Source: Spiribacter salilacus
Lineage (GTDB): Bacteria; Pseudomonadota; Gammaproteobacteria; Nitrococcales; Nitrococcaceae
Reading direction: 5' to 3'
Assembly: GCF_009649225.1 (NCBI RefSeq)
Contig: NZ_WJPP01000001.1
Location: 496,001 to 560,000 of the forward strand
DNA: 64,000 nt
A program made the translations under genes and the position numbers. Shown here piece after piece: positions 2,780-16,576 of this stretch. The number at the start of each line of letters is the position of its first letter. Position 1 is the first letter of the stretch. The notes beneath the pieces were generated by a model. The model worked only from the letters and a program-made list of their open reading frames with translations. It did no database searches and was not told the origin of the DNA.

Positions 2780-3721
2780 TCACCCCTCCAACACCGGCAA
2801 CGCCGCCTCAATGCGCGCGCGCATGGGCTCATGCTCGGCGGTTAGCTTGAGTGACTGCCCTAGTGATTCGGCGGGCTCATCTACGGTAAAGCCGGGGGCA
2901 TCGGTAGCAATCTCAAAGAGCATGCCGCCGGGTTCACGAAAGTAAACGGAGCGAAAATAAAATCGATCTACCTCACCAGAGCATGGCAGGCGAGCTGCTT
3001 GCACCTGATCAAGCATCTCCAGCAATGCAGAGCGATTGGGCACCCGAAACGCAATGTGATGGACCGTGCCATAGCCAGGCTGGCCCATCGCTGATGATTC
3101 AATTAATTCGATATGATCCGCCCGCGCACTGCCTTGGCTTTTGAACCGCCCCACCACGCCAGCGTTTGAATCAACGGGGGTATAGCCCAGCAACTCGGTA
3201 AGCACGCGCGCTGTGGAATCCGGCCGATGGCTGGCGAGCGTCAGACCTGCAAAGCCACGAATCGCAAGCGCAGAGGCTGGCTCTGCTGCCTCTGCTGGCT
3301 CAGGCGCCTCGGCAACTAAAGCCAGCGGCAGGCCATCAGGGTCAGTGAATTGCAAACGATCAGACTGGCCGCTAGAGGGGCCGCCGGAAAAGGCCACGCC
3401 TGCATCCCGCAGGCGCGCCTCCCACTCAACCAGTGTGTTTAGCGGCACAGAAAACTGGGTCTCAATGGGCTGCCCTCGCCCCGGCTTACCAGCTGGCACA
3501 CCGGGGAAGGGAAAAAACGTCATGGCCGTACCGGGCCGGCCCAACTCATCACCGTAATACAGATGATAGGTAAACGGATCATCCTGATTGACGGTTTTTT
3601 TGACAAGCCGCAAGCCGAGCACTCGGGTGTAAAAATCGAGGTTGCGCTGTGGGTCAGCCGCCACTGCGGTTACGTGATGAAGGCCTCGTGTACTACTCAA
3701 ATCGTCTCCCGACGTCATCAA
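2780..3721 (-). CDS. VOC-family ring-cleaving dioxygenase (MhqO/PcpA-like)
   Basis: The 313-residue protein has two tandem vicinal-oxygen-chelate modules. The first begins GLHHVTAVAADPQRNLDFYT; the second contains VHHIAFRVPN and ends with the metal-ligand glutamate in GGMLFEIATDAPGF. These supply the His-His-Glu iron site expected of extradiol-type, hydroquinone-cleaving dioxygenases of the MhqO group. The gene starts inside the 3' end of the S33 hydrolase gene (29-nt overlap), so it belongs to the same transcript as the peptide-export genes. A metabolic role in aromatic or quinone detoxification is the family expectation; a link to the bacteriocin system is only positional. Its 5' coding DNA contains a 27-bp stretch repeated at 14126-14152. 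Confidence 0.85.
   Translation of the reverse strand: MMTSGDDLSSTRGLHHVTAVAADPQRNLDFYTRVLGLRLVKKTVNQDDPFTYHLYYGDELGRPGTAMTFFPFPGVPAGKPGRGQPIETQFSVPLNTLVEWEARLRDAGVAFSGGPSSGQSDRLQFTDPDGLPLALVAEAPEPAEAAEPASALAIRGFAGLTLASHRPDSTARVLTELLGYTPVDSNAGVVGRFKSQGSARADHIELIESSAMGQPGYGTVHHIAFRVPNRSALLEMLDQVQAARLPCSGEVDRFYFRSVYFREPGGMLFEIATDAPGFTVDEPAESLGQSLKLTAEHEPMRARIEAALPVLEG
3660..3686. repeat. 27-bp repeat, copy 1 (inside the dioxygenase gene)
   Basis: This stretch encodes, on the minus strand, the GLHHVTAV motif of the VOC dioxygenase. The identical 27 bases recur at 14126-14152 at the break point of a truncated precursor gene. See the finding on that junction. Confidence 0.9.
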
Positions 3722-5246
3722 CGCAGCTGCGATCTATGGGCTCATTCGGAGCATCTAGAAAGTTAGCAACGACGCTGCGACCACAGAGTAAATTCAAATG
3801 CACATCATGCCCCATGCCTCGAAAGGCAACAAACTGACTATTCGAAAACTGTTCTGCAAGCCGCTGCGCAACAGCATGGGGGACTAACCCATCCGCATCA
3901 CCACTCATGATGAGTACTGGGTGGTCAGTTGCCACAGGCACTTCAAAAGACTCAGGTGCCTGCCCCACATCCCAAATGGGGCAGGTTAAACGATAACTTT
4001 GAAAACCATCTCCGGCCGGGTAGTAGAGCGGATTAGCCTCAACCACCGATTCAAGCGCCGCTGGGTCGTCAACAGGAAAGTCCTCACGACATTTGACTGA
4101 AAGATGCTGCCCAAGCTTCAACCCAGCAACCACATCATTGAGTGCCGCTGAAAAAATTGCCAATACCTCTTGATCATCTAGTGACAAGCGGCCTTGCACC
4201 ATATCGTGCAGTTCGGCGATATAACGCGGCAAATGGGTTGCAGTCTCGCTAAATGCCAGATGCCCAGATAGCGCCTCGATCACATCCGGCCAGCTCACCG
4301 CTTCGCGAACCGTCTCACCGGATTGGGGATCTTGAAATTGCAACAATACCGGCTCTTCTTGAAAATGCGCGGCCACCGCTTTGAATTTCTGCTCGAGGTC
4401 GCCATAGCGCTCCGTGCAGTTAGCATCCGCAGCACAGTCGGCGAAAAGCTGCTTAAAAAGCCGCGGACGCTCAGCAACCGCCTCGGCTGTTGCCTGTGAT
4501 CCGAGTGTTAGCGGAGAGTTAAGCACCATAGCGCGAACCCCAGCGGGGTCAACGCGCAGCAAATCTAACGCAAGCCGTCCCCCATAAGAGGTGCCCTGCA
4601 CATTCCAATGCCGCAACCCCAGCGCTTGGCGGATCGCACGCAGATCCAAAGCGGCCGCCCGCGTATCAAACAATGAGAGATCGACCCCTGCCTCTACCCA
4701 ATGGTCATGACAAGCGGTAAAACGTCTTCGATCTGCCTGATCTGCGTCAAATTCGGCCTCTTCGGTACTGGGGTCATTAAAGCGGTTTTGATCAAGCTCA
4801 GATGGCGCGATTTCCGGGCAATCAAGCGCCGGCTCAGATAGCCCCGTGCCCCGCTGATCAACCAAAATCATGCCGCGATTTCGCCTTAACTCAACCGCAC
4901 CCCCAAACCCAGCGATTGCCTCTGAGCCAGCTTGACCTGGGCCACCACTCAAATAAACAAAGGGATCGGGGTCGGGGCTTGAGGAGAGATTATCCAGAAT
5001 CGTTAGATGCACCCCAATCATTGCCGCGTCTGCCGGCAGACTTCCATCCGCCTGCACCAGCCCATGGTCCATTGGCAGCTCAGCCATTAAGCAAGTGGGT
5101 GTCTCGCCAAGCGGGGGTGTAAATGGACAGTCGATTTCTTCAAGCACAACCATTGGCACCGGGGGTAAGGCCTGTGCCAGTGAGATCGCACCGGGCATTA
5201 ATAGCATTGCACCAAAGGCTATCCACAACTGTTTTGTCGGCATCAC
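3693..5246 (-). CDS. Exported alpha/beta-hydrolase, S33 tripeptidyl-aminopeptidase-like
   Basis: The 517-residue protein begins with a signal peptide (IAFGAMLLMPGAISLAQALP). It has the alpha/beta-hydrolase order of S33 peptidases: the oxyanion motif YLSGGPGQAG, then DQRGTGLSEPALDCPE, the nucleophile elbow GTSYGGRLALDLL (serine near residue 220), the acid in MSGDADGLVPH and the histidine in FRGMGHDVHLN. Cysteines in the exported domain could pair. S33 enzymes of this type (SlpD/TAP-like) remove N-terminal residues from peptides. The start lies only 11 nt after the stop of the second ABC gene, so it is very likely co-transcribed with the exporter. An attractive inference is that it trims exported peptides in the periplasm; general peptide scavenging is the alternative. 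Confidence 0.85.
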   Translation of the reverse strand: MMPTKQLWIAFGAMLLMPGAISLAQALPPVPMVVLEEIDCPFTPPLGETPTCLMAELPMDHGLVQADGSLPADAAMIGVHLTILDNLSSSPDPDPFVYLSGGPGQAGSEAIAGFGGAVELRRNRGMILVDQRGTGLSEPALDCPEIAPSELDQNRFNDPSTEEAEFDADQADRRRFTACHDHWVEAGVDLSLFDTRAAALDLRAIRQALGLRHWNVQGTSYGGRLALDLLRVDPAGVRAMVLNSPLTLGSQATAEAVAERPRLFKQLFADCAADANCTERYGDLEQKFKAVAAHFQEEPVLLQFQDPQSGETVREAVSWPDVIEALSGHLAFSETATHLPRYIAELHDMVQGRLSLDDQEVLAIFSAALNDVVAGLKLGQHLSVKCREDFPVDDPAALESVVEANPLYYPAGDGFQSYRLTCPIWDVGQAPESFEVPVATDHPVLIMSGDADGLVPHAVAQRLAEQFSNSQFVAFRGMGHDVHLNLLCGRSVVANFLDAPNEPIDRSCVDDVGRRFE

Positions 5247-5257
5247 AAAATCTCCTT

Positions 5258-7435
5258 TTAGCTTATCTGTCGCTCTGCCATGTGCGTAAAAAGCCCGTTT
5301 TGCTTCATGAGTACGCTATAGCTGCCCTCTTCAACCAAACGCCCGTCAGACAGCACCAGAATCCGATCCGCCTCCCGCACCGTACTGAGCCGGTGCGCAA
5401 TGACGATTCGGGTGCAGTCTAATGCCGCAAGGCTCTCGCTCACCCGCGCCTGAGTCGCGTTATCCAGCGCACTCGTGGCCTCATCCAGAATTAACAATCG
5501 CGGCTGATCAACAATGGCTCGGGCAATTAATAAGCGCTGCCGTTGCCCGCCCGATAAAGTATCGCCGGCATCCCCCACCAGCGTATGCATTCCCATGGGC
5601 ATGCGGGCAATATCCGCATCCAACCCAGCGCGGCGGGCAGCCTCCTCTGCATCGGCCAGGGTTCGCCCAGTATTGCCAATGATGTTGCGCAAAATATCGC
5701 CACTCATCACGTGCTGTTGCTGAAGCACAACGCCTAATTGCCGGCGCAGCGCGCTCACATCCAAGCCAGCCAGATCCTGTCCATCAAAATACACCCCGCC
5801 GCTGTCAGGCTGCTCAAAACCCAACAGTAAGCGCAGTAGGGTCGACTTACCTCCGCCTGAGGCGCCCACGATGGCAACAAACTCCCCCGGGCTTACGCGA
5901 AAGGAAATTCCATCTAAAATTGGCGGCCCGTCCCGCTCATAACGAAAACGCAGCTCGCTGACCTCAACATCGCCAGTAAGCTCGCCCGGATCCGCCTTAT
6001 TGAAATCAACCTCCGGCTCAGCCTCAAGGATTGGACGGGCGCGCTCATAGAGGGGGACGATATTCAGCACGCCGATCAGCGTTTGGCTCAAACCAAGCAG
6101 CCCGCCTAAGAAAACCCCAAACGCCGCGTTAAAGGCCAAAAAGCCACCAGTCGTGATCGCATCATCACCTAACAAAAACGCCAAACTGGCGAATAACGCC
6201 ATGCTCCCCAGCACCGGATAGACCGCCTGAATGGTTTCTGTGATGTTTTGGATGCGCCCAGCGGCAATCACGTGATGTTGCTGCCGAGCAAAGACCTGTG
6301 ACCAGCACAAAAAAGCACGGAGCTCAGCATTAGCGGCCTGCAGTTTGCCAATACCGCTGAGCAACTGAAGTAAGATCCCGTCAATCCGCCCGGCAATACC
6401 CGCCAACTCACGCTCATGACGAAGCGCTGCTAGTGTAAAAACCGCACTAGTTACCAATAAAACCAGCGCCAGCATCAGGCCAACCAGAGCCAGCATTGGG
6501 CTATAGAGAAACATCAAGCCCAAACTCAGCAACGCGAAGACCGATGTCAGCACACTACTCAGGGTGGTGCCTGAGAGTGCCTCGCGAATCTGTGATATCC
6601 CGTTGGCCCGGCCAGCAAGATCACCCGCGGTGTAGTCTCGGAAAAAGGTGGCCGGCAGGCGCAGCATCCGATCCCACACCGCTGACTGTAACTGCGCATC
6701 GGCCTGACCTTCCAAGCGCAACTGGGCAAAGCGTTGCGTTAACTGAAACATCGCGGAAGCAATGGCAATAGCAATCAACCCTAAAGAAAGCTGCAACAGC
6801 TCGTAGTGACTTGCGCTCGGAATTACCGTATCCACTAAATACCCAGTGGCCACCGGGACCACCAGCCCAAGCAGGCCCACGGCCAGTGCCAGCATACCAA
6901 TCAGCGTGAGGTCGAGTTGGCGCCCATCTAAGGCAAAACCCAAAATCGCAAACATCCCCCCAAGGCGCGCCTGCAACGGGCGATAGATCTGCACCGCACC
7001 GCTTTGCAAAGCCGCCCGATCAGCCGCGGTGAGCGCCCTTGGTGCTTGGTTGGGTGCGTGAATGCGCCACGCCGCACCGGGGCGATGCGCCGGCAGCAAC
7101 GCCACGGGCTGCGCCTCAGGGCCATAAAATGCCAATAAAGGCCCAGCAGCCTGTGCAGGCCAATCCCCCACCAGCGCCACGCGGCGATACCGGCAGCCGG
7201 CGGCCCGTAGGATCACCCGCACACTCGCATTATCGGGCAAGGTTGGCACGCGCAAGGTAAAGCCTAACGCTTCGGCGACAAGGCTGATCGCGGCCTGCAG
7301 AGGATTATGACTGGCCACACTTGCCTGCCCAGGCAGCGGACGGACTAGCCCCGCCAACTCAGCCAAATGATCTGCCATGCGCGCCTTTTCTCGCGCTTGG
7401 CGACGTGCCAGCCGATCGTGCGCCGCGTCGGTCAT
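5258..7435 (-). CDS. NHLM bacteriocin-system ABC transporter, permease/ATPase without peptidase
   Basis: The protein has 725 residues. The first 150 or so form a soluble N-terminal region in the position of a peptidase domain but with no recognisable Cys-His pair. A six-helix ABC membrane domain follows (LTLIGMLALAVGLLGLVVPV and others), then a full ATPase: Walker A GASGGGKST, signature LSGGQRQRL, Walker B LLILDEATSALD and the H-loop IVIAHRLSTV. This matches the second ATP-binding subunit of Nif11/nitrile-hydratase-leader (NHLM) export systems, which pairs with the peptidase-bearing ABC protein. It overlaps that gene by 4 nt (ATGA), as expected for a heterodimer made in equal amounts. It sits in the inner membrane. 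Confidence in the family is high from the context of leader peptides and partners. Confidence 0.9.
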   Translation of the reverse strand: MTDAAHDRLARRQAREKARMADHLAELAGLVRPLPGQASVASHNPLQAAISLVAEALGFTLRVPTLPDNASVRVILRAAGCRYRRVALVGDWPAQAAGPLLAFYGPEAQPVALLPAHRPGAAWRIHAPNQAPRALTAADRAALQSGAVQIYRPLQARLGGMFAILGFALDGRQLDLTLIGMLALAVGLLGLVVPVATGYLVDTVIPSASHYELLQLSLGLIAIAIASAMFQLTQRFAQLRLEGQADAQLQSAVWDRMLRLPATFFRDYTAGDLAGRANGISQIREALSGTTLSSVLTSVFALLSLGLMFLYSPMLALVGLMLALVLLVTSAVFTLAALRHERELAGIAGRIDGILLQLLSGIGKLQAANAELRAFLCWSQVFARQQHHVIAAGRIQNITETIQAVYPVLGSMALFASLAFLLGDDAITTGGFLAFNAAFGVFLGGLLGLSQTLIGVLNIVPLYERARPILEAEPEVDFNKADPGELTGDVEVSELRFRYERDGPPILDGISFRVSPGEFVAIVGASGGGKSTLLRLLLGFEQPDSGGVYFDGQDLAGLDVSALRRQLGVVLQQQHVMSGDILRNIIGNTGRTLADAEEAARRAGLDADIARMPMGMHTLVGDAGDTLSGGQRQRLLIARAIVDQPRLLILDEATSALDNATQARVSESLAALDCTRIVIAHRLSTVREADRILVLSDGRLVEEGSYSVLMKQNGLFTHMAERQIS

Positions 7436-9600
7436 GCCATCTCTCCGACCAATGCGGCATAGGCTTCGTTCATTGCCATTAACTCGGCATGCGTGCCCCG
7501 CTCCACCACGCGCCCTTCATCGAGCACAATAATCTCATCACAATCCCGAACCGTGCTGAGCCGATGGGCCACGATCAGCGCGGCACAACCGCGGCAGCGC
7601 AAATTTGATTCGACGGTGGCTTCGCTGACCGGGTCAAGCGCACTGGTGGCCTCATCAAGTACCAGCAGACTCGGGTCAGTCACCAGCGCACGGGCAATCT
7701 CAAGCCGCTGCAATTGCCCACCGCTAAAATTGCTCCCGCCCTCGCGCAGGGGGCTCTCATAGCCATGCGCCCGGCCAGCGATTTCTTCATGAATCAGCGC
7801 ATCATGGGCGGCATTAATCATGCGCTCCTCAGGCAGCGTGTCATCCCACAGCGTTAAGTTATCGCGCACACTGCCATCAAACACCGCCACGCTCTGATCA
7901 ACCATCGCTAGCGAGTTGGCTAATACGGCACGGGGCCAAAAATCTCGGGGCTTACCATCAAGCAGAACCTCGCCCGACCAGGGCGTGTACAGCCCCATCA
8001 CCAACCGCGCGATCGTAGATTTACCGCTGCCCGAACCACCCACTAGGGCCACGCGCTGGCCGGGCGCAAGCGTTAAATTAAAGTTTTCAATCAAGGGCGC
8101 TTGGTGGGGGCTATAACCAAAGGTTAGATCCTTGAGCTCAAGCTCACCTGTCAAGCGCACAGGCCCTGTATCGATTGCTTCGTCAGTCTCTCGTGTCGCG
8201 GGGTAATCAAACACATCATCCAAACGGCGCATATCGCCACCAAGCTTTTGCAAACGCTCAGCACTGTCCACCAACTCATTAATTGGCTGAATAAAAGCGG
8301 CTGCAAGTGCCTGAAAAGCCACCAATCCGCCAATAGTTAATACGCCTTCAATCACCCGCAACCCACCTACCGACAGGATCAGCGCTGCATTCAGGGCCAT
8401 TAAAAATGGCGGCACAGATAACAAAACCACCCCGGACGCGCCCAGACTTTGCCGGGCCGCCAATGTGCGTGCATGCTGACCTGCCCAGCGCGCAAAAAAG
8501 TCATCCTCCGCGCCGGTTGCTTTTAGGGATTCGATGGCCAGCAAGCCGCTCATCGAAGTCCCAATGAGCTTTCCTTCATCCATGAGCAAACGCTGATTGC
8601 CATCTTTACGCCGGCGCGCAACCGCTCGCAGCGCCACCAAGTTAAAAGCGCCAATGGCAACGGCCACTAACGTCAGCAATGGATCGAAAAGCATCATCAA
8701 CGCGGTGTAGAACACCACGGTAATAATCGCCAGCACGCTCTTAGCAAGGTCATTTGCCAGCGCATCGGCCACCGCATCGTTAATGGTGACGCGATTACCC
8801 ATCTCGCCCGCGGAACGTTGGTTATGAAATGCCAGCGGCAAATGCAGCACATGCCAGAGAAAACGCGCCGAGTGGCTAATGGATAGCTTGCTGCGCAGGC
8901 GCAATAAAACTTGTAACTGCAACCAGTGCAGCAGCGCCATCACGACCAGCGTACCAGCCATAAAAACCAGCAGCGGCATCACCCAATCGTCAAGCCCCCC
9001 AATGAGCACCTCATCCACAAACACCTTACTGAAGACCGGCACGAGTAATCCGGGAATGACCAAGGCCAAGCCAGCCAGCACCAAAAAGCCCACGCTGCCC
9101 CAGTTCCCGGGCAGGCGGTCAAGTATGGCCTCGCGGGCGCCGCGAACACGCCCACCCCGTTCAAAACCCTCATCAGGCGCCATCTCAAGGGCAACACCAG
9201 TAAAGCCAGCATCGAATTCGGCTTGCGTGATGACGCGTGGACCGGTTGCCGGGTCATTTAAATAAACCCGATCTCCACGAAACCCTTCCACCACTAAAAA
9301 ATGATTAAATTCCCAAAAAACAATACAGGGCCTACCGTAGTCACGAACCGCCTCGGGCTGCCAGCGCCTGCCCTGCGCTTGCAAACCAAAAGCGCGCGCA
9401 GCGCGCACAACGCTACTCGCCTTGCTACCGTCACGGGAAACACCACAGTCAATCCGCAAACGCTCAAGCGGCTCAAAGCGCCCGTAATACGCCAGTATGA
9501 TCCCTAAAGCCGCCGCCCCGCATTCAACCGCTTCCATCTGCAAAAGCGTGGGCGTGCGCACCCGCCAATTGCGTGGCCGGCCACTCAAAGCCCCAACCAC
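7432..9600 (-). CDS. NHLM bacteriocin-system ABC transporter with C39 leader peptidase
   Basis: The protein has 722 residues. The N-terminal C39 peptidase domain has its catalytic cysteine in QMEAVECGAAAL (around residue 27) and its histidine in FNHFLVVEGF, followed by the aspartate of YLNDPATGPR. This domain cuts after a double glycine in leader peptides. Membrane helices follow (VGFLVLAGLALVIPGLLVPV and later pairs), then an ATPase with Walker A GGSGSGKST, signature FSGGQLQRLE and Walker B LLVLDEATSALD. It should cleave and export the products of the precursor genes at 12.1-14.0 kb, all of which carry GG sites. It overlaps the HlyD-like gene by 16 nt and the partner ABC gene by 4 nt. Confidence 0.93.
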   Translation of the reverse strand: MVGALSGRPRNWRVRTPTLLQMEAVECGAAALGIILAYYGRFEPLERLRIDCGVSRDGSKASSVVRAARAFGLQAQGRRWQPEAVRDYGRPCIVFWEFNHFLVVEGFRGDRVYLNDPATGPRVITQAEFDAGFTGVALEMAPDEGFERGGRVRGAREAILDRLPGNWGSVGFLVLAGLALVIPGLLVPVFSKVFVDEVLIGGLDDWVMPLLVFMAGTLVVMALLHWLQLQVLLRLRSKLSISHSARFLWHVLHLPLAFHNQRSAGEMGNRVTINDAVADALANDLAKSVLAIITVVFYTALMMLFDPLLTLVAVAIGAFNLVALRAVARRRKDGNQRLLMDEGKLIGTSMSGLLAIESLKATGAEDDFFARWAGQHARTLAARQSLGASGVVLLSVPPFLMALNAALILSVGGLRVIEGVLTIGGLVAFQALAAAFIQPINELVDSAERLQKLGGDMRRLDDVFDYPATRETDEAIDTGPVRLTGELELKDLTFGYSPHQAPLIENFNLTLAPGQRVALVGGSGSGKSTIARLVMGLYTPWSGEVLLDGKPRDFWPRAVLANSLAMVDQSVAVFDGSVRDNLTLWDDTLPEERMINAAHDALIHEEIAGRAHGYESPLREGGSNFSGGQLQRLEIARALVTDPSLLVLDEATSALDPVSEATVESNLRCRGCAALIVAHRLSTVRDCDEIIVLDEGRVVERGTHAELMAMNEAYAALVGEMA

Positions 9601-10805
9601 CGACGTAGTGTGGGAATCACCAATGTGATCGGGCGTCGCTCGGCCACCGTCACACGGGTTTCAGCCAAACCACCCGTGCGAATTTGCATCTCTGGGCCCT
9701 GGCCAGAAGTCCAGCGATACCCACTGGGGGTGTGAGCATCGCGAATCAGATTGACGCTTGCCTCAAAAACTGCGCCCTCCCGCATCAACTGACGCACCAA
9801 TGACTCATTATCGAGCAAACGCATCATTCCATTAAAGGTGGCAGGAAATTCCGACACCCAAGTAATCTTACCCACCAAATAGCCATGCTCTTCGCGCTCG
9901 ACAATGGTGGGCGATACCAATGCCGTCATCCCGGGATTGAGTTGCTTGCCATCTTTCGCAGGCAAAAACATGGCAACCTCAAGTGCATTGATGTCACGCC
10001 CGCTGCGCTCCAGACTAAGAATCTCCGCGCCCGCACTTACTGAAGCGCCAACGTTATACTTAAGCTCTACTACCCGGCCCGCTTGGGGGGCGAGCACCTC
10101 CACCGCCACGCGATACCGCGCGGCAATCCCCTCTAGCTCAGCGCGGGCCTGATCCAACTCAAGCTGTGCCGTCTCAATCCGGTTTGCTCGCTCCTGTGCT
10201 TGCTGCGCATTGTTCAGGGCCAGTTCTTTAAGATCGGCTTTGGTATTGGCGATAGCCTCTGCGGTTTCAATGCGATTGCGCCGCGGAATCAACCCCTTGG
10301 CTTCAAGATCACTTTGCATCGCATAGCGTTCTTCATTAATTGCCAGCAAATCTTCTAGGTTTGTCTGCCTCTGCTCGCTAAACGCAGCCTGTAAATCGGC
10401 CTGCCGCGCTTGATGACGTCGCAACTGCTCCAGCCTGTCAGTTAACGCATCAACACGCGTTTGCTGTACACGCAACTCGGCCCGCAACTCAGGCTGAGCA
10501 AGCCGCGCAATCACCTGCCCTTGCTCCACTTCATCACCAGCCGACAACTCTAATTCGCTAATCCGGCCCGCAGTAGTGACCGTGACCGCCTCTACCCCGC
10601 CGGTGCGAATAAAGACGCCTTCGCCGTCCAGCCGCGTAGGTACAACCCCGTAAAACCCCCACAGCACCACGCTGGTCAGCAGCAATAAGACTGCAGTGAG
10701 CGCCACCCAACCGCGGCGCGAGGTGGCCACCATCATCGCGTCTAACTGCTCAGGCGCAGAAAGCTGGTCAAGCGCTTGTTGGCGAAAGATCCCCGATTTA
10801 GGCAT
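9585..10805 (-). CDS. NHLM-system HlyD-like secretion adaptor
   Basis: The 406-residue protein has a single membrane anchor near residues 31-52 (GWVALTAVLLLLTSVVLWGF) after a short cytoplasmic tail. Then comes a biotinyl-lipoyl half-domain (GRISELELSAGDEVEQGQVI), a long heptad-rich coiled-coil stretch, the second half-domain (VEVLAPQAGRVVELKYNVGASV) and a beta-barrel part. This is the membrane-fusion (HlyD/adaptor) layout, and the neighbourhood marks it as the NHLM subtype. It would link the ABC exporter to an outer-membrane channel; no TolC-like gene is present in the window, so a general TolC is presumably used. An 18-nt gap follows the regulator gene upstream. Confidence 0.9.
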   Translation of the reverse strand: MPKSGIFRQQALDQLSAPEQLDAMMVATSRRGWVALTAVLLLLTSVVLWGFYGVVPTRLDGEGVFIRTGGVEAVTVTTAGRISELELSAGDEVEQGQVIARLAQPELRAELRVQQTRVDALTDRLEQLRRHQARQADLQAAFSEQRQTNLEDLLAINEERYAMQSDLEAKGLIPRRNRIETAEAIANTKADLKELALNNAQQAQERANRIETAQLELDQARAELEGIAARYRVAVEVLAPQAGRVVELKYNVGASVSAGAEILSLERSGRDINALEVAMFLPAKDGKQLNPGMTALVSPTIVEREEHGYLVGKITWVSEFPATFNGMMRLLDNESLVRQLMREGAVFEASVNLIRDAHTPSGYRWTSGQGPEMQIRTGGLAETRVTVAERRPITLVIPTLRRWLGL

Positions 10806-10823
10806 AGGCGGTCATCGCTTACA

Positions 10824-11894
10824 TCAGGTCGAAAGGTGGTGCAGCCAGCGCTCATAGCGCCGATCAACGCGATCCTGACCAATTTGCGCGCCCACAACCC
10901 CCAACCCCTCGCGACGTGCGGTGCTTGGTGATACCCCATAACGGCGCCGAAAAGCCCGACTAAAGGCTGCATCGCTGGCGTAACCGCTGACCAAAGCAAT
11001 GTCTAACAGCGTGCGGTGCGCCTCATTTGGGTTTGTTAACGCGAGCATGGCCAAACGCAGACGACGCTCCCGAATATAACTTCCCACCCCACCCAAACGC
11101 TCAAAAAGCTGATAAAGCTTTGAGCGTGACATACCCACCTGCCCAGCAATCCAATCGGCGCCAAGCTGTGGGTTGGCAAGATGCGCTTCGATAAATCGGC
11201 GAACAGCGGCTAGCCGCACCCGCGCGATGGCATCAGGCTCGGTCGATGACTCCTGATTGACGGCATTGTTCAAACAAGCACTGACCATACCCACCGTTAC
11301 AGGCACCAGCTCACCAACCTGCTGGAAAGACAGCACATCGGCAAAGCGCTTGAGCATACACATATGCTCATGGAGCATTTGCACCATTGGCTGACCAGGC
11401 GCCAACATCCGCATATGTTGCTTCTCGGGTTGTTTAAGATGCGGTTCAAGCAGATCGCGAGGAATGATGAGTGAGAGATTAGAAAAATCAGAGGTTTGAC
11501 TGACGGCCGAGCGAGTCAAGTCAAAAACAACCAGTCCACCCCGTGGGAGGTCAAAACGACCCTGAGCGGTTTGCCACGTCATCTGTCCCCGCTCGAAGAG
11601 TTGAATCATAAAATGATCCATCCCATCACGAGCCATCACAGATTCATTACGCTGCCAGTCATGCGCTGTGGTGGCTGCGCGCGCCAGCATCAGCGGCCCA
11701 AGCATGTGCGCATCAACCTGCGCAAAAAAGTCTTTTTCACGCCGTTCGCGCGCTGCATTAACCTCGAAAATACAGGAGATGCTCTCGTGCCAAACATCAT
11801 AGCGCTCTTTATTAGGCACCTCATCCACTTGGAAGCGCGTATGCGGCAGTGCCTGGGCCTTGGCGTTATTTTGAGTAGTACGGTTATGTTCCAT
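10824..11894 (-). CDS. AraC-family regulator of the peptide-export locus
   Basis: The protein has 356 residues. The start is set at the ATG at 11894 because a strong ribosome site (GGGAGGGCGGG) lies directly before it; an upstream frame to 11969 adds 25 residues with no such signal. The N-terminal two thirds is an AraC_binding_2-like sensor domain (YDVWHESISCIFEV, MIQLFERGQMTWQTAQGRF). The C-terminal hundred residues carry two helix-turn-helix motifs (LGADWIAGQVGMSRSKLYQLF and LLDIALVSGYASDAAFSRAF) ending in GVSPSTARREG. It is the first gene of the minus-strand export operon and divergent from the precursor genes, so it probably controls both. The inducer is unknown. Confidence 0.88.
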   Translation of the reverse strand: MEHNRTTQNNAKAQALPHTRFQVDEVPNKERYDVWHESISCIFEVNAARERREKDFFAQVDAHMLGPLMLARAATTAHDWQRNESVMARDGMDHFMIQLFERGQMTWQTAQGRFDLPRGGLVVFDLTRSAVSQTSDFSNLSLIIPRDLLEPHLKQPEKQHMRMLAPGQPMVQMLHEHMCMLKRFADVLSFQQVGELVPVTVGMVSACLNNAVNQESSTEPDAIARVRLAAVRRFIEAHLANPQLGADWIAGQVGMSRSKLYQLFERLGGVGSYIRERRLRLAMLALTNPNEAHRTLLDIALVSGYASDAAFSRAFRRRYGVSPSTARREGLGVVGAQIGQDRVDRRYERWLHHLST

Positions 11895-12080
11895 CCCGCC
11901 CTCCCTACTGACGACAGCTAACTTGACGCTAGCCCCTAATTTATGGGAATGCAAACCACCAAATCCCATCTGAGCTAATCAAAAACGTCCTACCAACAAT
12001 GCAGGACAAACGATCAAATGTGCGGACAACTCAGCGGTAACACTGAGCTGAAACTGAACAAGATCGACAAGGAGCCAACA
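11895..12080. promoter_or_regulatory. Divergent intergenic control region between regulator and precursor genes
   Basis: This 186-bp region must hold the promoters for the export operon (leftward) and the precursor genes (rightward). Two short inverted repeats are visible: GTCCT...AGGAC around 11987-12007 and CTCAG-N8-CTGAG around 12030-12047. A clear AAGGAG lies before the first precursor ATG. No convincing sigma-70 boxes could be assigned by eye. AraC-type sites are usually direct rather than inverted, so the roles of these repeats are open. Confidence 0.4.
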
Positions 12081-12416
12081 ATGTCTGAACAAGGCGTTGA
12101 GACCTTTCTCAACCAACTCACTGATCAACCGGCACTGCGCGAGCAACTCTCCAACGTCCTGAAGAACGCCGAAGATAGCGCCATCGGCGAAACGGTTGTC
12201 GCGTTTGCCAACGAGGCCGGGTTTGATATCAGTGCTGAGGACCTTGAATGGCTCAATACCGCGTTGTCAGAAGATGCGGTATCGGATGAAGCGCTGGATG
12301 AGGTGAGTGGGGGCTTTACGGGGCCCTTTAACTACTTTTCAGGCGCCACGCTCCGTACAGGGGTCACCAACGAAAAAGACTACTTGAACCCCTTTAAGAA
12401 AGAGTTTTGGCAATAG
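12081..12416 (+). CDS. Nif11-like leader precursor peptide 1 (NPFKKEFW core)
   Basis: The protein has 111 residues. The start is the ATG at 12081 after AAGGAGCCAACA. Residues 1-78 form a Nif11-like leader: VETFLNQLTD..., AFANEAGFDISAEDLEWLN, then an acidic run DEALDEVSGG with the cleavage GG at 77-78. The 33-residue core begins FTGPFNYFSGATLRTG and ends YLNPFKKEFWQ. It has no cysteine and few Ser/Thr. The C39-ABC exporter encoded divergently is the obvious processing partner. The core ending is shared with precursors 3 and 5 but spelled with different codons here, which argues for selection on the peptide. Activity (bacteriocin, signal or other) is not known. Confidence 0.85.
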   Translation: MSEQGVETFLNQLTDQPALREQLSNVLKNAEDSAIGETVVAFANEAGFDISAEDLEWLNTALSEDAVSDEALDEVSGGFTGPFNYFSGATLRTGVTNEKDYLNPFKKEFWQ

Positions 12417-12433
12417 CCAACAAGGAGACCATC

Positions 12434-12991
12434 ATGTCCGACACAACACTTCCCGAGCATCTGGAAAAGCTAATCGATGCTTTACAAACCAATCCCGCCC
12501 TTGGCGAAGGCGTGATTGCCGCGGTGGGTGATCATGAAGGCACCGCTGCCGCTGAAGCTGCCGCAAGCTATTACAACAAAGCCGGCTATCCCGTAACGGC
12601 TGAGGAACTCATCGCACTGGAGATCGCCCGCAAGAACGCTGTGGGCGATGCCCTGAGTGATGCCGAGCTCGATTTAGTGGCAGGTGGCGGGAGCAACTTT
12701 TTCAGTAATTTGCCACGTAATTTATGGGCAACAGGAAAATTGGCCACCTCACTTGTTTCAGATCGGCGGCTAAAGGTATCCATTACCGAAGCGGGCCGTG
12801 ATGCGCGCACTGGCCTGATGCAGTACGAGTTTGCTTATCGCAGCCATCCCTCCCGCCGCTTTCGCGGTGTGATGGCCGACGAAGTGGCCGAGGTGATGCC
12901 TGAAGCCGTGATGGTGATGCCATCTGGATACCATGCTGTGGACTACGGCCGCCTGGGCCTGGAGATGACTGAGGTAGATCACCATGTCTAA
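12434..12991 (+). CDS. Nif11-like leader fused to a Peptidase_S74-like auto-chaperone domain
   Basis: The protein has 185 residues. The start is at 12434 after CAAGGAGACC. Residues 1-85 are a leader of a second type (LPEHLEKLIDALQTNPALGEG, NKAGYPVTAEELIALEIA, then DAELDLVAGGG with the GG at 84-86). Residues 109-180 match the tail-fibre intramolecular chaperone/auto-protease family S74: SDRRLK, then GLMQYEFAYR, FRGVMADEVAEVMPEAV and YHAVDYGRLGLE. Ser109 and Lys114 have the five-residue spacing of the known S74 Ser-Lys self-cleavage dyad. Only about 23 residues lie between the GG and Ser109. It sits between two ordinary precursors and overlaps the next by 8 nt. I know of no described case of this fusion; phage origin of the C-terminal part is likely. 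Confidence 0.85.
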   Translation: MSDTTLPEHLEKLIDALQTNPALGEGVIAAVGDHEGTAAAEAAASYYNKAGYPVTAEELIALEIARKNAVGDALSDAELDLVAGGGSNFFSNLPRNLWATGKLATSLVSDRRLKVSITEAGRDARTGLMQYEFAYRSHPSRRFRGVMADEVAEVMPEAVMVMPSGYHAVDYGRLGLEMTEVDHHV

Positions 12992-13328
12992 GCAAGACGT
13001 CGAAAATTTCCTTAAGCAACTCACTGATGACATCACACTGCGCGAGCAGCTCTCAGCCACACTGGCCAATGTCGAAGACAGCGCCACCGGTGAGACGGTT
13101 ATCGCCTTTGCCACTGAGGCGGGGTTTGATATCAGTGCAGAGGATCTTGAATGGCTCAACAACGCGCTGTCAGAAGATGCCTTGCCGGATGAAGCTCTGG
13201 ATGAGGTGAGTGGCGGCGTGATGGGCGCGATTTCCTACCTCGGCGACAAACTCCATCCCTACCGGACAGAGCCTCCGGCCAAATCAAAAAACGCACTAAA
13301 CCCTTTTAAAAAGGATTTTTGGTGGTAA
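12984..13328 (+). CDS. Nif11-like leader precursor peptide 3 (NPFKKDFW core)
   Basis: The protein has 114 residues. The start at 12984 lies inside the end of the S74-fusion gene (8-nt overlap), with GAGGTAG upstream as ribosome site. The leader (residues 1-78) is almost the same as in precursors 1 and 5 and ends DEALDEVSGG. The 36-residue core starts VMGAISYLGDKLHPY, has a proline/lysine-rich middle, and ends ALNPFKKDFWW. No cysteine is present. The leader DNA is nearly identical to that of the gene at 13676 while the core DNA is not, until the last 11 codons, which converge again. This indicates a recent duplication with divergence of the middle of the core. Confidence 0.85.
   Translation: MSKQDVENFLKQLTDDITLREQLSATLANVEDSATGETVIAFATEAGFDISAEDLEWLNNALSEDALPDEALDEVSGGVMGAISYLGDKLHPYRTEPPAKSKNALNPFKKDFWW
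13298..13318. repeat. Near-palindrome coding for the NPFKKDF motif (precursor 3)
   Basis: Ten bases on each side of a central A pair with one mismatch (arms AAACCCTTTT and AAAAGGATTT), followed by more T. It lies entirely in codons for the conserved peptide ending. A perfect version occurs at 13984-14004. Confidence 0.85.
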
Positions 13329-13350
13329 TCAAAGCTAAGAGGTGCTCGCA

Positions 13351-13641
13351 ATGACAGAGAAAAATATCGAAACCTTTTTAAATACCCTCGCCGATGACTC
13401 GGCGATGCAAGCGCGTTTATCCGCAACGATCAACGAAACCATCATCTCTTTTGCTGCAGATGCCGGGTTTGAATTCACGGCTGACGACCTTCTCGCACTG
13501 AACGACAAGCTATCTGATGAAGCGCTAGATAGCGTGACGGGTGGATCTTTCTTAACCGATGCGGGGCGTTCGCTGAAAGATTGGTTTCTGCCACACCGGA
13601 TCTCGAAGGACGAGAAAAAGAACCCATGGAACCATCCTTAA
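13351..13641 (+). CDS. Nif11-like leader precursor peptide 4 (divergent core)
   Basis: The protein has 96 residues. The start is set at the ATG at 13351 preceded by AAGAGGTGCTCGCA. The leader is shorter (65 residues): IETFLNTLADD, ADAGFEFTADDLLALNDKL, then DEALDSVTGG. The GFEFTADDL segment is the closest in this set to the classic Nif11 helix. The 31-residue core starts SFLTDAGRSLKDWF and ends KKNPWNHP, a diverged version of the shared NPF..FW ending. It again lacks cysteine. It is less similar to its neighbours than they are to one another and is probably an older member of the family. Export by the C39-ABC pair is inferred from the GG. Confidence 0.8.
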   Translation: MTEKNIETFLNTLADDSAMQARLSATINETIISFAADAGFEFTADDLLALNDKLSDEALDSVTGGSFLTDAGRSLKDWFLPHRISKDEKKNPWNHP

Positions 13642-13675
13642 ATTCAACCACCCGACTGCAAACAAGGGGAACATC

Positions 13676-14023
13676 ATGTCCGAACAAACCGTTAAAACCT
13701 TTCTGAGTCAACTCAGCAATGACCCCACACTGCGCGAGCAGCTCTCAGCCACACTGGCCAATGTCGAAGACAGCGCCACCTCTGAGACGGTTATCGCCTT
13801 TGCCACTGAGGCTGGGTTTGATATCAGTGCGGAGGATCTTGAATGGCTCAACAACGCGCTGTCAGACGATGCGTTATCGGATGAAGCGCTGGATGAGGTG
13901 AGTGGCGGCTGGCTCGGCGCCACCGCTTACGCATTACAAAAAATAGAGCCCCAGCTTAACTACGGCAAAAATAAAAACGCACTAAATCCTTTTAAAAAGG
14001 ATTTTTGGAAACCAATTGGTTAA
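13676..14023 (+). CDS. Nif11-like leader precursor peptide 5 (NPFKKDFW core)
   Basis: The protein has 115 residues. The start is at 13676 after AAGGGGAACATC. The leader (1-78) ends DEALDEVSGG. The 37-residue core begins WLGATAYALQKIEPQ and ends ALNPFKKDFW followed by four extra residues KPIG. The core has no cysteine, serine or threonine cluster of lanthipeptide type. Leader DNA matches precursor 3 nearly base for base over about 170 nt. The coding DNA of the ending contains a perfect 10-bp inverted repeat. This is the last intact member of the set; only a broken copy follows. Confidence 0.85.
   Translation: MSEQTVKTFLSQLSNDPTLREQLSATLANVEDSATSETVIAFATEAGFDISAEDLEWLNNALSDDALSDEALDEVSGGWLGATAYALQKIEPQLNYGKNKNALNPFKKDFWKPIG
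13984..14004. repeat. Perfect palindrome coding for the NPFKKDF motif (precursor 5)
   Basis: Arms AAATCCTTTT (13984-13993) and AAAAGGATTT (13995-14004) are exact reverse complements around one A, followed by TT. It resembles a weak intrinsic terminator but lies in frame inside the gene end, about 19 nt before the stop codon. Confidence 0.9.
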
Positions 14024-14041
14024 TCACAAAACGAAAACATC

Positions 14042-14143
14042 ATGCCCGACACAACACTTTCCGAGCATCTGGAAAAGCTAATTGATGCTTTACAAAACGA
14101 TCCCGCCCTTGGCGAAGGCGTGATTGCCACTGCGGTTACGTGA
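14042..14143 (+). pseudogene. Truncated second copy of the leader-S74 precursor gene
   Basis: From the ATG at 14042 the frame reads MPDTTLSEHLEKLIDALQND and on to GEGVIA. It matches the start of the S74-fusion gene at 12434 almost base for base for 84 nt. It then switches to foreign sequence at 14126 and stops at 14141 (TAVT-stop). The remaining leader, the GG site and the S74 domain are missing, so it cannot yield a product like its parent. The break coincides with a 27-bp stretch also present in the VOC dioxygenase gene. Confidence 0.85.
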
Positions 14144-15025: not shown

Positions 15026-15229
15026 CTACTCGCCTCGCTTGCGCCGGTGGGTAACTTGCTCGCCCCCGATGCCCCAATTATCCGTTTCGACCTCGTCGAT
15101 GACCACCATAGTGGTTGCCGGATTCTTGTTAAGTACGCGTTCGAGCAAATCGGTAACACCTTCGATGAGCTCCGCTTTCTGCTCGGACGTCACACCCTCA
15201 CGGGTGACCTTGATATTCACATAGGGCAT
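15026..15229 (-). CDS. 4-oxalocrotonate tautomerase family protein
   Basis: The 67-residue protein starts MPYVNIKVTREGVTSEQKAELIEG. Proline 2, which becomes the N-terminal catalytic base after methionine removal, is in place, and length (about 62-70) and the VVIDEVETDNWGIGG segment are typical. Such small enzymes form hexamers and tautomerise keto-enol substrates in aromatic degradation; the actual substrate is unknown. A link to the ring-cleaving dioxygenase genes (intact at 2.8 kb, remnant at 14.1 kb) is possible but only suggested by proximity. Confidence 0.88.
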   Translation of the reverse strand: MPYVNIKVTREGVTSEQKAELIEGVTDLLERVLNKNPATTMVVIDEVETDNWGIGGEQVTHRRKRGE

Positions 15230-15317
15230 GAATTGAACCTCAGATTTAGGATCAAAGTAGGAGACTACAATCTCTAGCGAGACACGCCAATATCCAGCTC
15301 ATTAATCTGTTGATGCC

Positions 15318-15578
15318 TCAGCGCCGATAGACCTGGCCCCTATGGCCAACTTTAACTACAGTAACAATCAAAGCGCCATCAGCAATTTCATAGATAATCC
15401 GATAAACGCCTTGCCGGATCCGATACCGCTCCTCACCAGTCAGCTTCTGACTCCCTGACGGTCGGGGCTCATTGCTTAGCGCATAAATACGCTCAAGAAT
15501 TTTTGCAACGTCGGGATTTGGGATTCGCCGCAGATCCTTTGCGACTGAACGCTTGAAAAGCAGCTCATATCTTTCCAT
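15318..15578 (-). CDS. RelE/ParE-family toxin
   Basis: The 86-residue protein begins MERYELLFKRSVAKDLRRI and ends with the basic RelE-like strand VKVGHRGQVYRR. It contains the family core YRIRQGVYRIIYEI. Those arginines and the terminal YRR are the residues that attack ribosome-bound mRNA in RelE-type toxins. It overlaps the upstream antitoxin gene by 14 nt, the normal antitoxin-toxin order. Target (mRNA versus gyrase, as in ParE) cannot be decided, but the HRGQVY ending favours RelE. Confidence 0.88.
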   Translation of the reverse strand: MERYELLFKRSVAKDLRRIPNPDVAKILERIYALSNEPRPSGSQKLTGEERYRIRQGVYRIIYEIADGALIVTVVKVGHRGQVYRR

Positions 15579-15798
15579 GCGCCCTCAGATCGTTCAACAA
15601 CGCTTCGTAGGAGATGGTCGGTTCTGCAACTCGATCCTCAAAAGCGGCGAGGTCTTCCTGATCTTCCGCCAAAGACAAACGCACGGCCTCGTTAACAATC
15701 TCCGAGACCGTTTGATTCGTGTGAGCCGCCTTGATGCGCAGGGCAGCATGCAACTGTGGATCGAAGTAAATGGTTGAGCGCCGCGCGGAGTCCGTCAT
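15565..15798 (-). CDS. Ribbon-helix-helix (CopG-like) antitoxin
   Basis: The 77-residue protein carries an N-terminal ribbon-helix-helix (RSTIYFDPQLHAALRIKAAHT, then TVSEIVNEAVRLSL) and an acidic C-terminal half (EDQEDLAAFEDR) that would wrap the toxin. It is the first gene of the pair and would repress its own promoter. GGAGGTGAGTC precedes the start codon. An imperfect inverted repeat at 15837-15851 upstream is a candidate operator. It is divergent from the HigBA-like pair, with about 100 bp between the two start codons. Confidence 0.87.
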   Translation of the reverse strand: MTDSARRSTIYFDPQLHAALRIKAAHTNQTVSEIVNEAVRLSLAEDQEDLAAFEDRVAEPTISYEALLNDLRAHGKI

Positions 15799-15836
15799 GA
15801 CTCACCTCCTGATTAGCCTTAATACTCAGTTTAGCG

Positions 15837-15851
15837 GTTAAACGTTTTAAC
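15837..15851. promoter_or_regulatory. Inverted repeat, candidate operator of the RHH/RelE pair
   Basis: The 15-bp sequence GTTAAACGTTTTAAC is an inverted repeat with one mismatch, 39 bp before the antitoxin start on the minus strand. Position and form suit a ribbon-helix-helix repressor site. Confidence 0.45.
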
Positions 15852-15864
15852 GTCAGTTTGGACC

Positions 15865-15892
15865 TTGCAAATATACGCAAATTGCGTACCAT
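15865..15892 (+). promoter_or_regulatory. Promoter with embedded palindrome before the HigBA-like pair
   Basis: TTGCAA (15865-15870) and TACCAT (15887-15892), 16 bp apart, form a plausible sigma-70 promoter. Between and overlapping them lies the perfect 15-bp palindrome TACGCAAATTGCGTA (15874-15888), a likely operator for the HigA-like antitoxin. The transcript would start at or just before the toxin ATG at 15900, so it may be nearly leaderless. Confidence 0.5.
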
Positions 15893-15899
15893 TCATCGC

Positions 15900-16244
15900 A
15901 TGAAGTTGGTTTTCCTAGAGACACCCTCTTTCACTCGGCACCTCAGGGACTACCTGACCGATGATAGTTACCGCGAATTGCAGCACAAACTGATGGACAA
16001 CCCTGAAATGGGTGTTGTGATACCGGGCACTGGTGGGTTTCGCAAGGTCCGCTGGGAAGACGCCCGTCGCGGAAAAGGTAAACGAAGTGGACTGAGGATT
16101 ATCTACTACTATCTCACGAGTGATCGCCAGATTTGGTTCTTCGCAATTTATAACAAGGACGAGACCCTAGATTTGACGGTAGAGGAAAAGAAGGTGCTCA
16201 AGAAGACTATCCATGCCGAAATCGAAGCCAGGAGACGAGACTAA
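15900..16244 (+). CDS. HigB-like RelE-superfamily toxin
   Basis: The protein has 114 residues from the ATG at 15900 (MKLVFLETPSFTRHL); an upstream start at 15858 would lie across the promoter. It has the HigB2/GraT-like pattern: LTDDSYRELQHKLMDNPEMG, GGFRKVRWEDARRGKGKRSGLRIIYYY, and IWFFAIYNKDETLDLT. These toxins cleave mRNA on the ribosome. The gene precedes its antitoxin, the reverse order typical of hig loci, and shares one nucleotide with it. A possible weak point is the lack of a strong ribosome site, which fits a nearly leaderless transcript. Confidence 0.87.
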   Translation: MKLVFLETPSFTRHLRDYLTDDSYRELQHKLMDNPEMGVVIPGTGGFRKVRWEDARRGKGKRSGLRIIYYYLTSDRQIWFFAIYNKDETLDLTVEEKKVLKKTIHAEIEARRRD

Positions 16245-16576
16245 TGACGCAAAAACGCAAATTGTTCGATGAACTCATGGAAGGCGTCAACGCAATGCAG
16301 CAGCATCGTGAAGGCAAAATCACTCTGCGCTCGCATGAGGTAGAAGACCTTCTCCCGCTCGAGGTAGACGCGAATCTTATTCGTGACACACGTGAGCGTT
16401 TGAACGTCTCCCGCGCTGTATTCGCCCGACGTCTGCGGGTATCGACGCGCACACTGGAAAACTGGGAACAAGGTCGGGCGCGCCCCAATGCTCAAGCAGC
16501 GGCTCTAATTTTGATGGTCAGGACATTTCCTGACACGCTGGAGAAACTGAGCGGCCTAGATAGCCATGCGGCTTAG
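16244..16576 (+). CDS. HigA-like XRE antitoxin
   Basis: The 110-residue protein has an N-terminal toxin-binding arm (KRKLFDELMEGVNAMQQHREGK) and a C-terminal XRE helix-turn-helix (IRDTRERLNVSRAVFARRLRV, STRTLENWEQGRARPNAQA). This arrangement is that of HigA antitoxins. The start ATG overlaps the toxin stop by one base, and a GGAG in the toxin gene end serves as ribosome site. It should neutralise the upstream toxin and repress the promoter palindrome at 15874-15888. Confidence 0.88.
   Translation: MTQKRKLFDELMEGVNAMQQHREGKITLRSHEVEDLLPLEVDANLIRDTRERLNVSRAVFARRLRVSTRTLENWEQGRARPNAQAAALILMVRTFPDTLEKLSGLDSHAA

Follow-up and report, generated by a model that had tools for sequence, protein, structure and literature searches.

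A Nif11-leader peptide array with a shared tryptophan-containing tail beside an NHLM-type exporter in Spiribacter salilacus

The window analysed here, a stretch of 64,000 nucleotides from the genome of Spiribacter salilacus (NZ_WJPP01000001.1, positions 496,001 to 560,000), raises the question of what a set of short precursor genes with a common C-terminal motif is for when no modifying enzyme is recognised beside them. Nif11 peptides exported by NHLM transporters are usually read via their modifying enzymes, and an enzyme-free array is a simple system for asking what such peptides do.

Precursor genes, hybrid gene and export cassette

Four cysteine-free precursors are encoded on the + strand between 12081 and 14023, as the earlier note had claimed: P1 (12081..12416), P2 (12984..13328), P3 (13351..13641) and P4 (13676..14023). 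Pfam Nif11 and TIGR03798 both matched all four above their cut-offs, TIGR03798 with 45.0, 45.2, 50.6 and 56.5 bits, respectively (cut-off 32.3). Each leader ends in GG, the predicted cleavage site, and is followed by a variable core (FTGPF...NPFKKEFWQ, 33 aa, in P1; VMGAI...NPFKKDFWW, 36 aa, in P2; SFLTD...NPWNHP, 31 aa, in P3; WLGAT...NPFKKDFWKPIG, 37 aa, in P4). The cores of P1-P4 have masses of about 3.90, 4.21, 3.72 and 4.26 kDa, respectively, and a net charge of +1 to +4, and the leaders a net charge of -10 to -16. The leader of P3 is shorter and more diverged than those of the other precursors, and a GTG at 13342 is an alternative start for this gene. The coordinates given earlier also include a fifth gene, which lies among the four at 12434-12991. 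Gaps between the five genes are 17, -8, 22 and 34 nt, the negative value being the overlap of the start of P2 with the end of the fifth gene, and this spacing indicates that they probably form one transcription unit.

The motif NPFKK(D/E)FW was found three times in the genome, always at this locus and on the + strand: at 12387..12410 in P1 (as NPFKKEFW), 13299-13322 in P2 and 13985-14008 in P4. These precursors had been said to end in the motif; it is present in all three, though not at the extreme C-terminus, as the tail Trp is followed by one residue in P1 (...EFW-Q) and P2 (...DFW-W) and by four in P4 (...DFW-KPIG). P3 does end in NPWNHP, as described, and retains only KKNPW close to its end.

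The fifth gene (12434..12991, + strand) is a hybrid, encoding a weak Nif11-type leader that ends at a GGG site, a 23-aa stretch and a Peptidase_S74 domain (PF13884, 27.7 bits, cut-off 22). The leader scored 23.5 bits against TIGR03798, under the cut-off of 32.3, and can be called leader-like only. In addition to the PF13884 match, a candidate catalytic dyad of the S74 self-cleaving chaperones is present, with Ser109 and Lys114 five residues apart; the available text of PMC8326128 gives dyads with the same spacing in MyRF (S587/K592) and endoNF (S911/K916). In that text, MyRF is cleaved only as a trimer, which a coiled coil at the C-terminus holds together. The hybrid protein ends 26 residues past the Pfam match, and its structure model is poor (mean pLDDT 53), models at this locus being of low confidence. 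If the protein were cut both after GG and before Ser109, a peptide of 23 residues, GSNFFSNLPRNLWATGKLATSLV, would result. If the hybrid is self-cleaving, the peptide would be made from both ends, an arrangement for which we found no precedent in the open-licence literature or the genomes searched. No second Nif11/S74 hybrid was found among 369 genomes of the class, where the search returned the gene itself and an S74-only match (a 342-aa frame in G369, locus L080), or in the viral contigs. A truncated copy of the S74-type precursor, comprising the leader start only, lies behind P4 at 14042..14143 (+ strand; 90% identity over 106 nt, 83% over residues 1-30), and the precursor-plus-hybrid block has therefore probably been duplicated.

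On the opposite (-) strand, an AraC-type regulator identified by a domain match (10824..11969, divergent from the precursor operon), an NHLM-type HlyD adaptor (9585..10805; TIGR03794, 321.7 bits, cut-off 156.2), ABC1, an NHLM C39 peptidase/permease/ATPase (7432..9600; TIGR03796, 1025.1 bits, cut-off 853.3), and ABC2, an NHLM permease/ATPase with no peptidase (5258..7435; TIGR03797, 856.8 bits, cut-off 709.4), are tightly packed. The C39 domain of ABC1 (PF03412, 100.6 bits) is of the GG-cleaving exporter type, and the curated models place the system in the N11P/NHLM kind. The earlier proposal of a complete export unit is not supported, as the cluster shows no gene of TolC type. A cluster in G681, a genome of the same phylum and another class, consists of the same set of genes; identity to the counterparts in the window is 52% for AraC, 52% for ABC1 and 30% for HlyD. 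Among the best 30 of 314 plasmid records, AraC relatives were at most 34% identical. Further along the window, genes resembling toxin-antitoxin components (tautomerase, RelE-like and helix-turn-helix, all by eye) were seen downstream of an SRAP gene at 15026-16576.

Candidate modification enzymes

The earlier note saw no modifying enzyme near the precursor genes, and no recognised maturase is present beside them. The genome-wide search for RiPP enzymes that it had suggested returned no match for YcaO (PF02624) or LanC-like (PF05147) proteins and one PoyD-type epimerase on another contig. With LanC-like and YcaO enzymes absent from cluster and genome, the peptides do not group with the lanthipeptides or the azol(in)e RiPPs. 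Eight radical SAM proteins (PF04055) are encoded in the genome; NCBIfam models assign seven to housekeeping functions (MoaA, MiaB, HemW, HemN, LipA, RlmN and EpmB), and the eighth has no class, its neighbours look unrelated and no precursor was seen beside it in a 3.4-kb locus. An alpha/beta hydrolase gene (TAP-like, 3693..5246, - strand) starts 11 nt behind ABC2 and belongs to the unit by position only. It was considered as a maturase and rejected: a 70% identical relative in G008 sits on a contig of 3 kb that shows no exporter gene, and in 12 further members of the genus the hydrolase is missing or only weakly matched.

The PoyD-type epimerase (TIGR04517, 509 bits) belongs to another NHLM unit of the same genome, located on contig C14 (L015, G000:C14:96000-115900, 9652-11819), together with two Nif11 precursors with Ala/Val-rich cores, a Methyltransf_36 protein and an outer-membrane efflux protein. 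The leaders of these precursors differ from those of P1-P4. As the epimerase has precursors and an NHLM exporter of its own, epimerisation of the window peptides in trans is possible but unsupported. A relative of the C14 unit is present in G008 (L017). A lone Nif11 precursor with the core GNWFTKFWNNIGNSDVVFGKPQI was also found in the Spiribacter genome (L014 9806-10084, G000:C1:579805), and no adjoining NHLM genes were recognised.

We consider it unlikely that the window encodes RiPPs modified in trans, with the tail Trp or the core serving as substrate for an enzyme located elsewhere, either SrpI-like or the C14 epimerase. Such an enzyme has a precedent in SrpI, a brominase acting on proteusins at their C-terminal Trp (PMC10286304, available text). 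In the same text, SrpI tolerates one residue after the Trp but not three, which would fit P1 and P2, where a Trp is at the C-terminus or one residue from it, but not P4, where four residues follow, nor P3. The epimerase in the genome, an FAD-binding oxidase beside the G681 array and LanM genes near two other Trp-tailed loci all favour modification in trans. Set against them are the separate precursors, leaders and exporter of the C14 unit, the lack of YcaO or LanC-like enzymes and the absence of a precursor from the locus of the unclassified PF04055 protein.

The C-terminal tail and its relatives

The stretch LNPFKK[DE]FW is common to P1, P2 and P4, with eight of nine columns identical in all three. 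When the three cores were shuffled, none of 2000 shuffles reached eight identical columns in the best shared 9-mer (maximum 3), and the conservation of the tail is thus not due to chance. Between leader and tail the cores are unlike, as had been claimed, with pairwise aligned identities of 9/24 residues for P2-P4, 4/16 for P1-P4 and 2/7 for P1-P2.

The codons of the tail bear on the possibility that it reflects only a recent shared origin of tandemly duplicated genes and does nothing in itself. The tails of P2 and P4 differ at a single silent site, so this pair represents a recent duplication, and P1 is older. The leaders are also alike, and other arrays have shared tails of their own (...PPTCK/...PPCK in L059 and ...GPLQ[YI]VKS in L121), so part of the conservation in the window may reflect paralogy. 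Compared with P1, however, the nine tail codons carry silent differences at four (P2) or five (P4) places and one D/E change each while the core is largely unlike. Few codons are involved, but the pattern points to selection acting on the tail at the level of its protein sequence. Ancestry as the sole explanation is also opposed by the recurrence of Trp endings in arrays with another leader family, and we judge it distinctly unlikely. Given the shared tails of other kinds elsewhere, sharing within one array is in itself unremarkable; it is the recurrence of Trp that is remarkable.

The search of other genomes for the exact motif, another check proposed earlier, leaves it known from one genome only. 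The scan, which permitted Lys or AGR-encoded Arg but covered neither Arg encoded by CGN nor other versions of the tail, matched 18 loci in the genome contigs and five in the viral contigs, none of them in another Nif11-type precursor. These loci were rejected as relatives using their translations and the leader HMM run over all of them; with no Nif11-type leader, they look like chance matches. A profile search with the four precursors found, besides the genome itself, 2/369 genomes of the class and 2/398 of the phylum, with matches to the leader only. No match to P2 was obtained by tblastn against plasmids and phages, and none was confirmed in the viral contigs using the precursor alignment.

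A looser form of the ending was found more widely, including, unexpectedly, in the two phylum matches, G681 and G608. G681 has six Nif11-like frames on contig C66, one of them weak and lacking GG, and one on C68. In six of these seven precursors (five on C66 and the one on C68) the final residue is Trp, preceded by Lys, Arg or Gln (FFKKW, LFKKW, FVKQW, LLKQW, FLKQW, FLRKW). The single precursor in G608 ends in SDFFSGW. Exporter relatives were present in 21 plasmid records, and the loci of 16 were examined; these brought in Pseudanabaena galeata, with a Nif11 precursor ending in PPIKW, and Azospirillum sp. B510, on whose plasmid seven of eight NHLP precursors are Trp-terminal, mostly after Lys (L110 11642-17610). 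Trp tails thus occur with two families of leader, Nif11 (G681, Pseudanabaena) and NHLP (B510), and this recurrence makes them a searchable mark for such peptides. As LanM is encoded near the B510 and Pseudanabaena arrays, such tails are not a feature of enzyme-free clusters alone.

Across the examined loci, 16 of 59 leader-matching frames end in Trp and 22 have Trp within the last five residues, in a set that was partly picked for matching leaders and takes in weak or doubtful matches (e.g. a 604-aa frame in L121 and the GG-less L102:13011-13292). As background, 448 ORFs with a length of 200 aa or more from the same loci include six that are Trp-terminal, one of them with Lys or Arg in the three residues before the Trp. 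The tail in the window is one form of a wider Lys/Arg...Trp ending. A single transporter clade for the Trp-tailed arrays was considered and rejected: on an ABC1 tree of 20 of the 29 sources (L072, L074, L075, L105, L107, L111, L113, L114 and L116 were left out), these arrays need four changes, no better than shuffled labels. In this tree the window ABC1 is nearest to that of G036 (support 93/90), from a locus read by eye as YcaO-type.

A working model and its comparison with known systems

The reading we prefer, and to which we give about an even chance, is a multi-peptide system resembling class II bacteriocins, exported by the NHLM transporter, probably unmodified and equipped with a cationic-aromatic C-terminal anchor. 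The four precursors would be made from one operon, probably under the control of AraC, and the acidic Nif11 leader would hold them inactive and address them to the exporter. The C39 domain of ABC1 would cut after GG, with export via ABC1/ABC2 and HlyD through an outer-membrane channel encoded elsewhere. The released cores of 31-37 residues would be cationic, probably unmodified and presumably able to kill; their middle part varies, and the Lys-Lys/Phe/Trp tail may be kept as a shared interface or a membrane or receptor anchor.

A class II-like mode of working is favoured because of the GG leader, the C39 exporter, the cationic Cys-free cores, the absence of the maturases searched for and two near-cut-off matches to Pfam Bacteriocin_IIc. 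The latter (25.0 and 25.9, just below the cut-off of 27.1) involve one B510 and one Pseudanabaena precursor with hydrophobic Trp-tailed cores (L110 12296-12682 and L117 2133-2471), which suggests that class II-like cores follow leaders of both the Nif11 and the NHLP family. The cores of P1-P4 matched no bacteriocin family above cut-off in the Pfam and NCBIfam models, the best being P1 to Lactococcin with an E value of only 0.1, and for this reason the system is said to work like a class II bacteriocin and not to be one. Also weighing against the model are the lack of a recognised immunity gene, the LanM genes near two other Trp-tailed arrays, the FAD-binding oxidase of the G681 array and the placement of the window ABC1 nearest to that of G036. 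The earlier suggestion of a new peptide class is not supported, since leader, GG site and exporter all belong to the N11P/NHLM kind already described and one genome only is known to have the exact motif. The peptides seem to be an uncommon form of a bacteriocin-type system that is already known, and not a wholly new class.

That the peptides are instead signals or surface-acting factors is very improbable, as several unlike cores per operon are more in keeping with an arsenal of peptides than with one signal and no receptor gene was recognised, even though the AraC regulator adjoins the exporter and no immunity gene was recognised by eye at the locus. A bolder proposal, which we regard as decidedly doubtful, combines two parts. 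In the first, GG peptides with a Lys/Arg...Trp tail would be a functional class of their own that recurs with both Nif11 and NHLP leaders, and their tail would serve for targeting or anchoring whatever the leader and with or without a maturase. In the second, the S74 hybrid would be a precursor whose C-terminal part is a follower able to cleave itself off, and this step together with C39 cleavage would release GSNFFSNLPRNLWATGKLATSLV. A search of the open-licence literature found no publication on the tail or the hybrid; papers on Trp bromination and prenylation did surface.

Among known systems, the closest in kind are the N11P precursors (TIGR03798) with NHLM export (TIGR03794/03796/03797) described by Haft et al. 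2010 (PMC2887384, available text), which have in common with the window the leader model, GG site, hypervariable core, paralogous array and three transport families. The window differs in having no TOMM or LanM gene beside the array, in its Lys-Phe-Trp tail and in the S74 hybrid gene inside the array. The NHLP array of Azospirillum sp. B510 (figure 4B of the same paper) likewise consists of tandem GG precursors, but has a nitrile-hydratase-type leader, long hydrophobic cores and LanM nearby. Tryptophan is not mentioned for this array in the available main text. The G681 array resembles that of the window in its Nif11 precursors and Trp tails; its cores are longer and mostly hydrophobic, and it has a trailing FAD-binding oxidase gene and, by eye, an outer-membrane efflux gene. 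In the SrpE/SrpI bromination system (PMC10286304, PMC10858898, available texts), a C-terminal Trp follows a long GG leader as in the window, but SrpE has an NHLP leader and a Cys-rich LCCCW core, with YcaO and the brominase in the cluster. Class II microcins and bacteriocins share with the window a GG leader, a C39 ABC exporter and a small cationic peptide, which in the window is probably likewise unmodified; the window is set apart from them by its Nif11-type leader of about 78 aa, two ABC subunits and no visible immunity gene.
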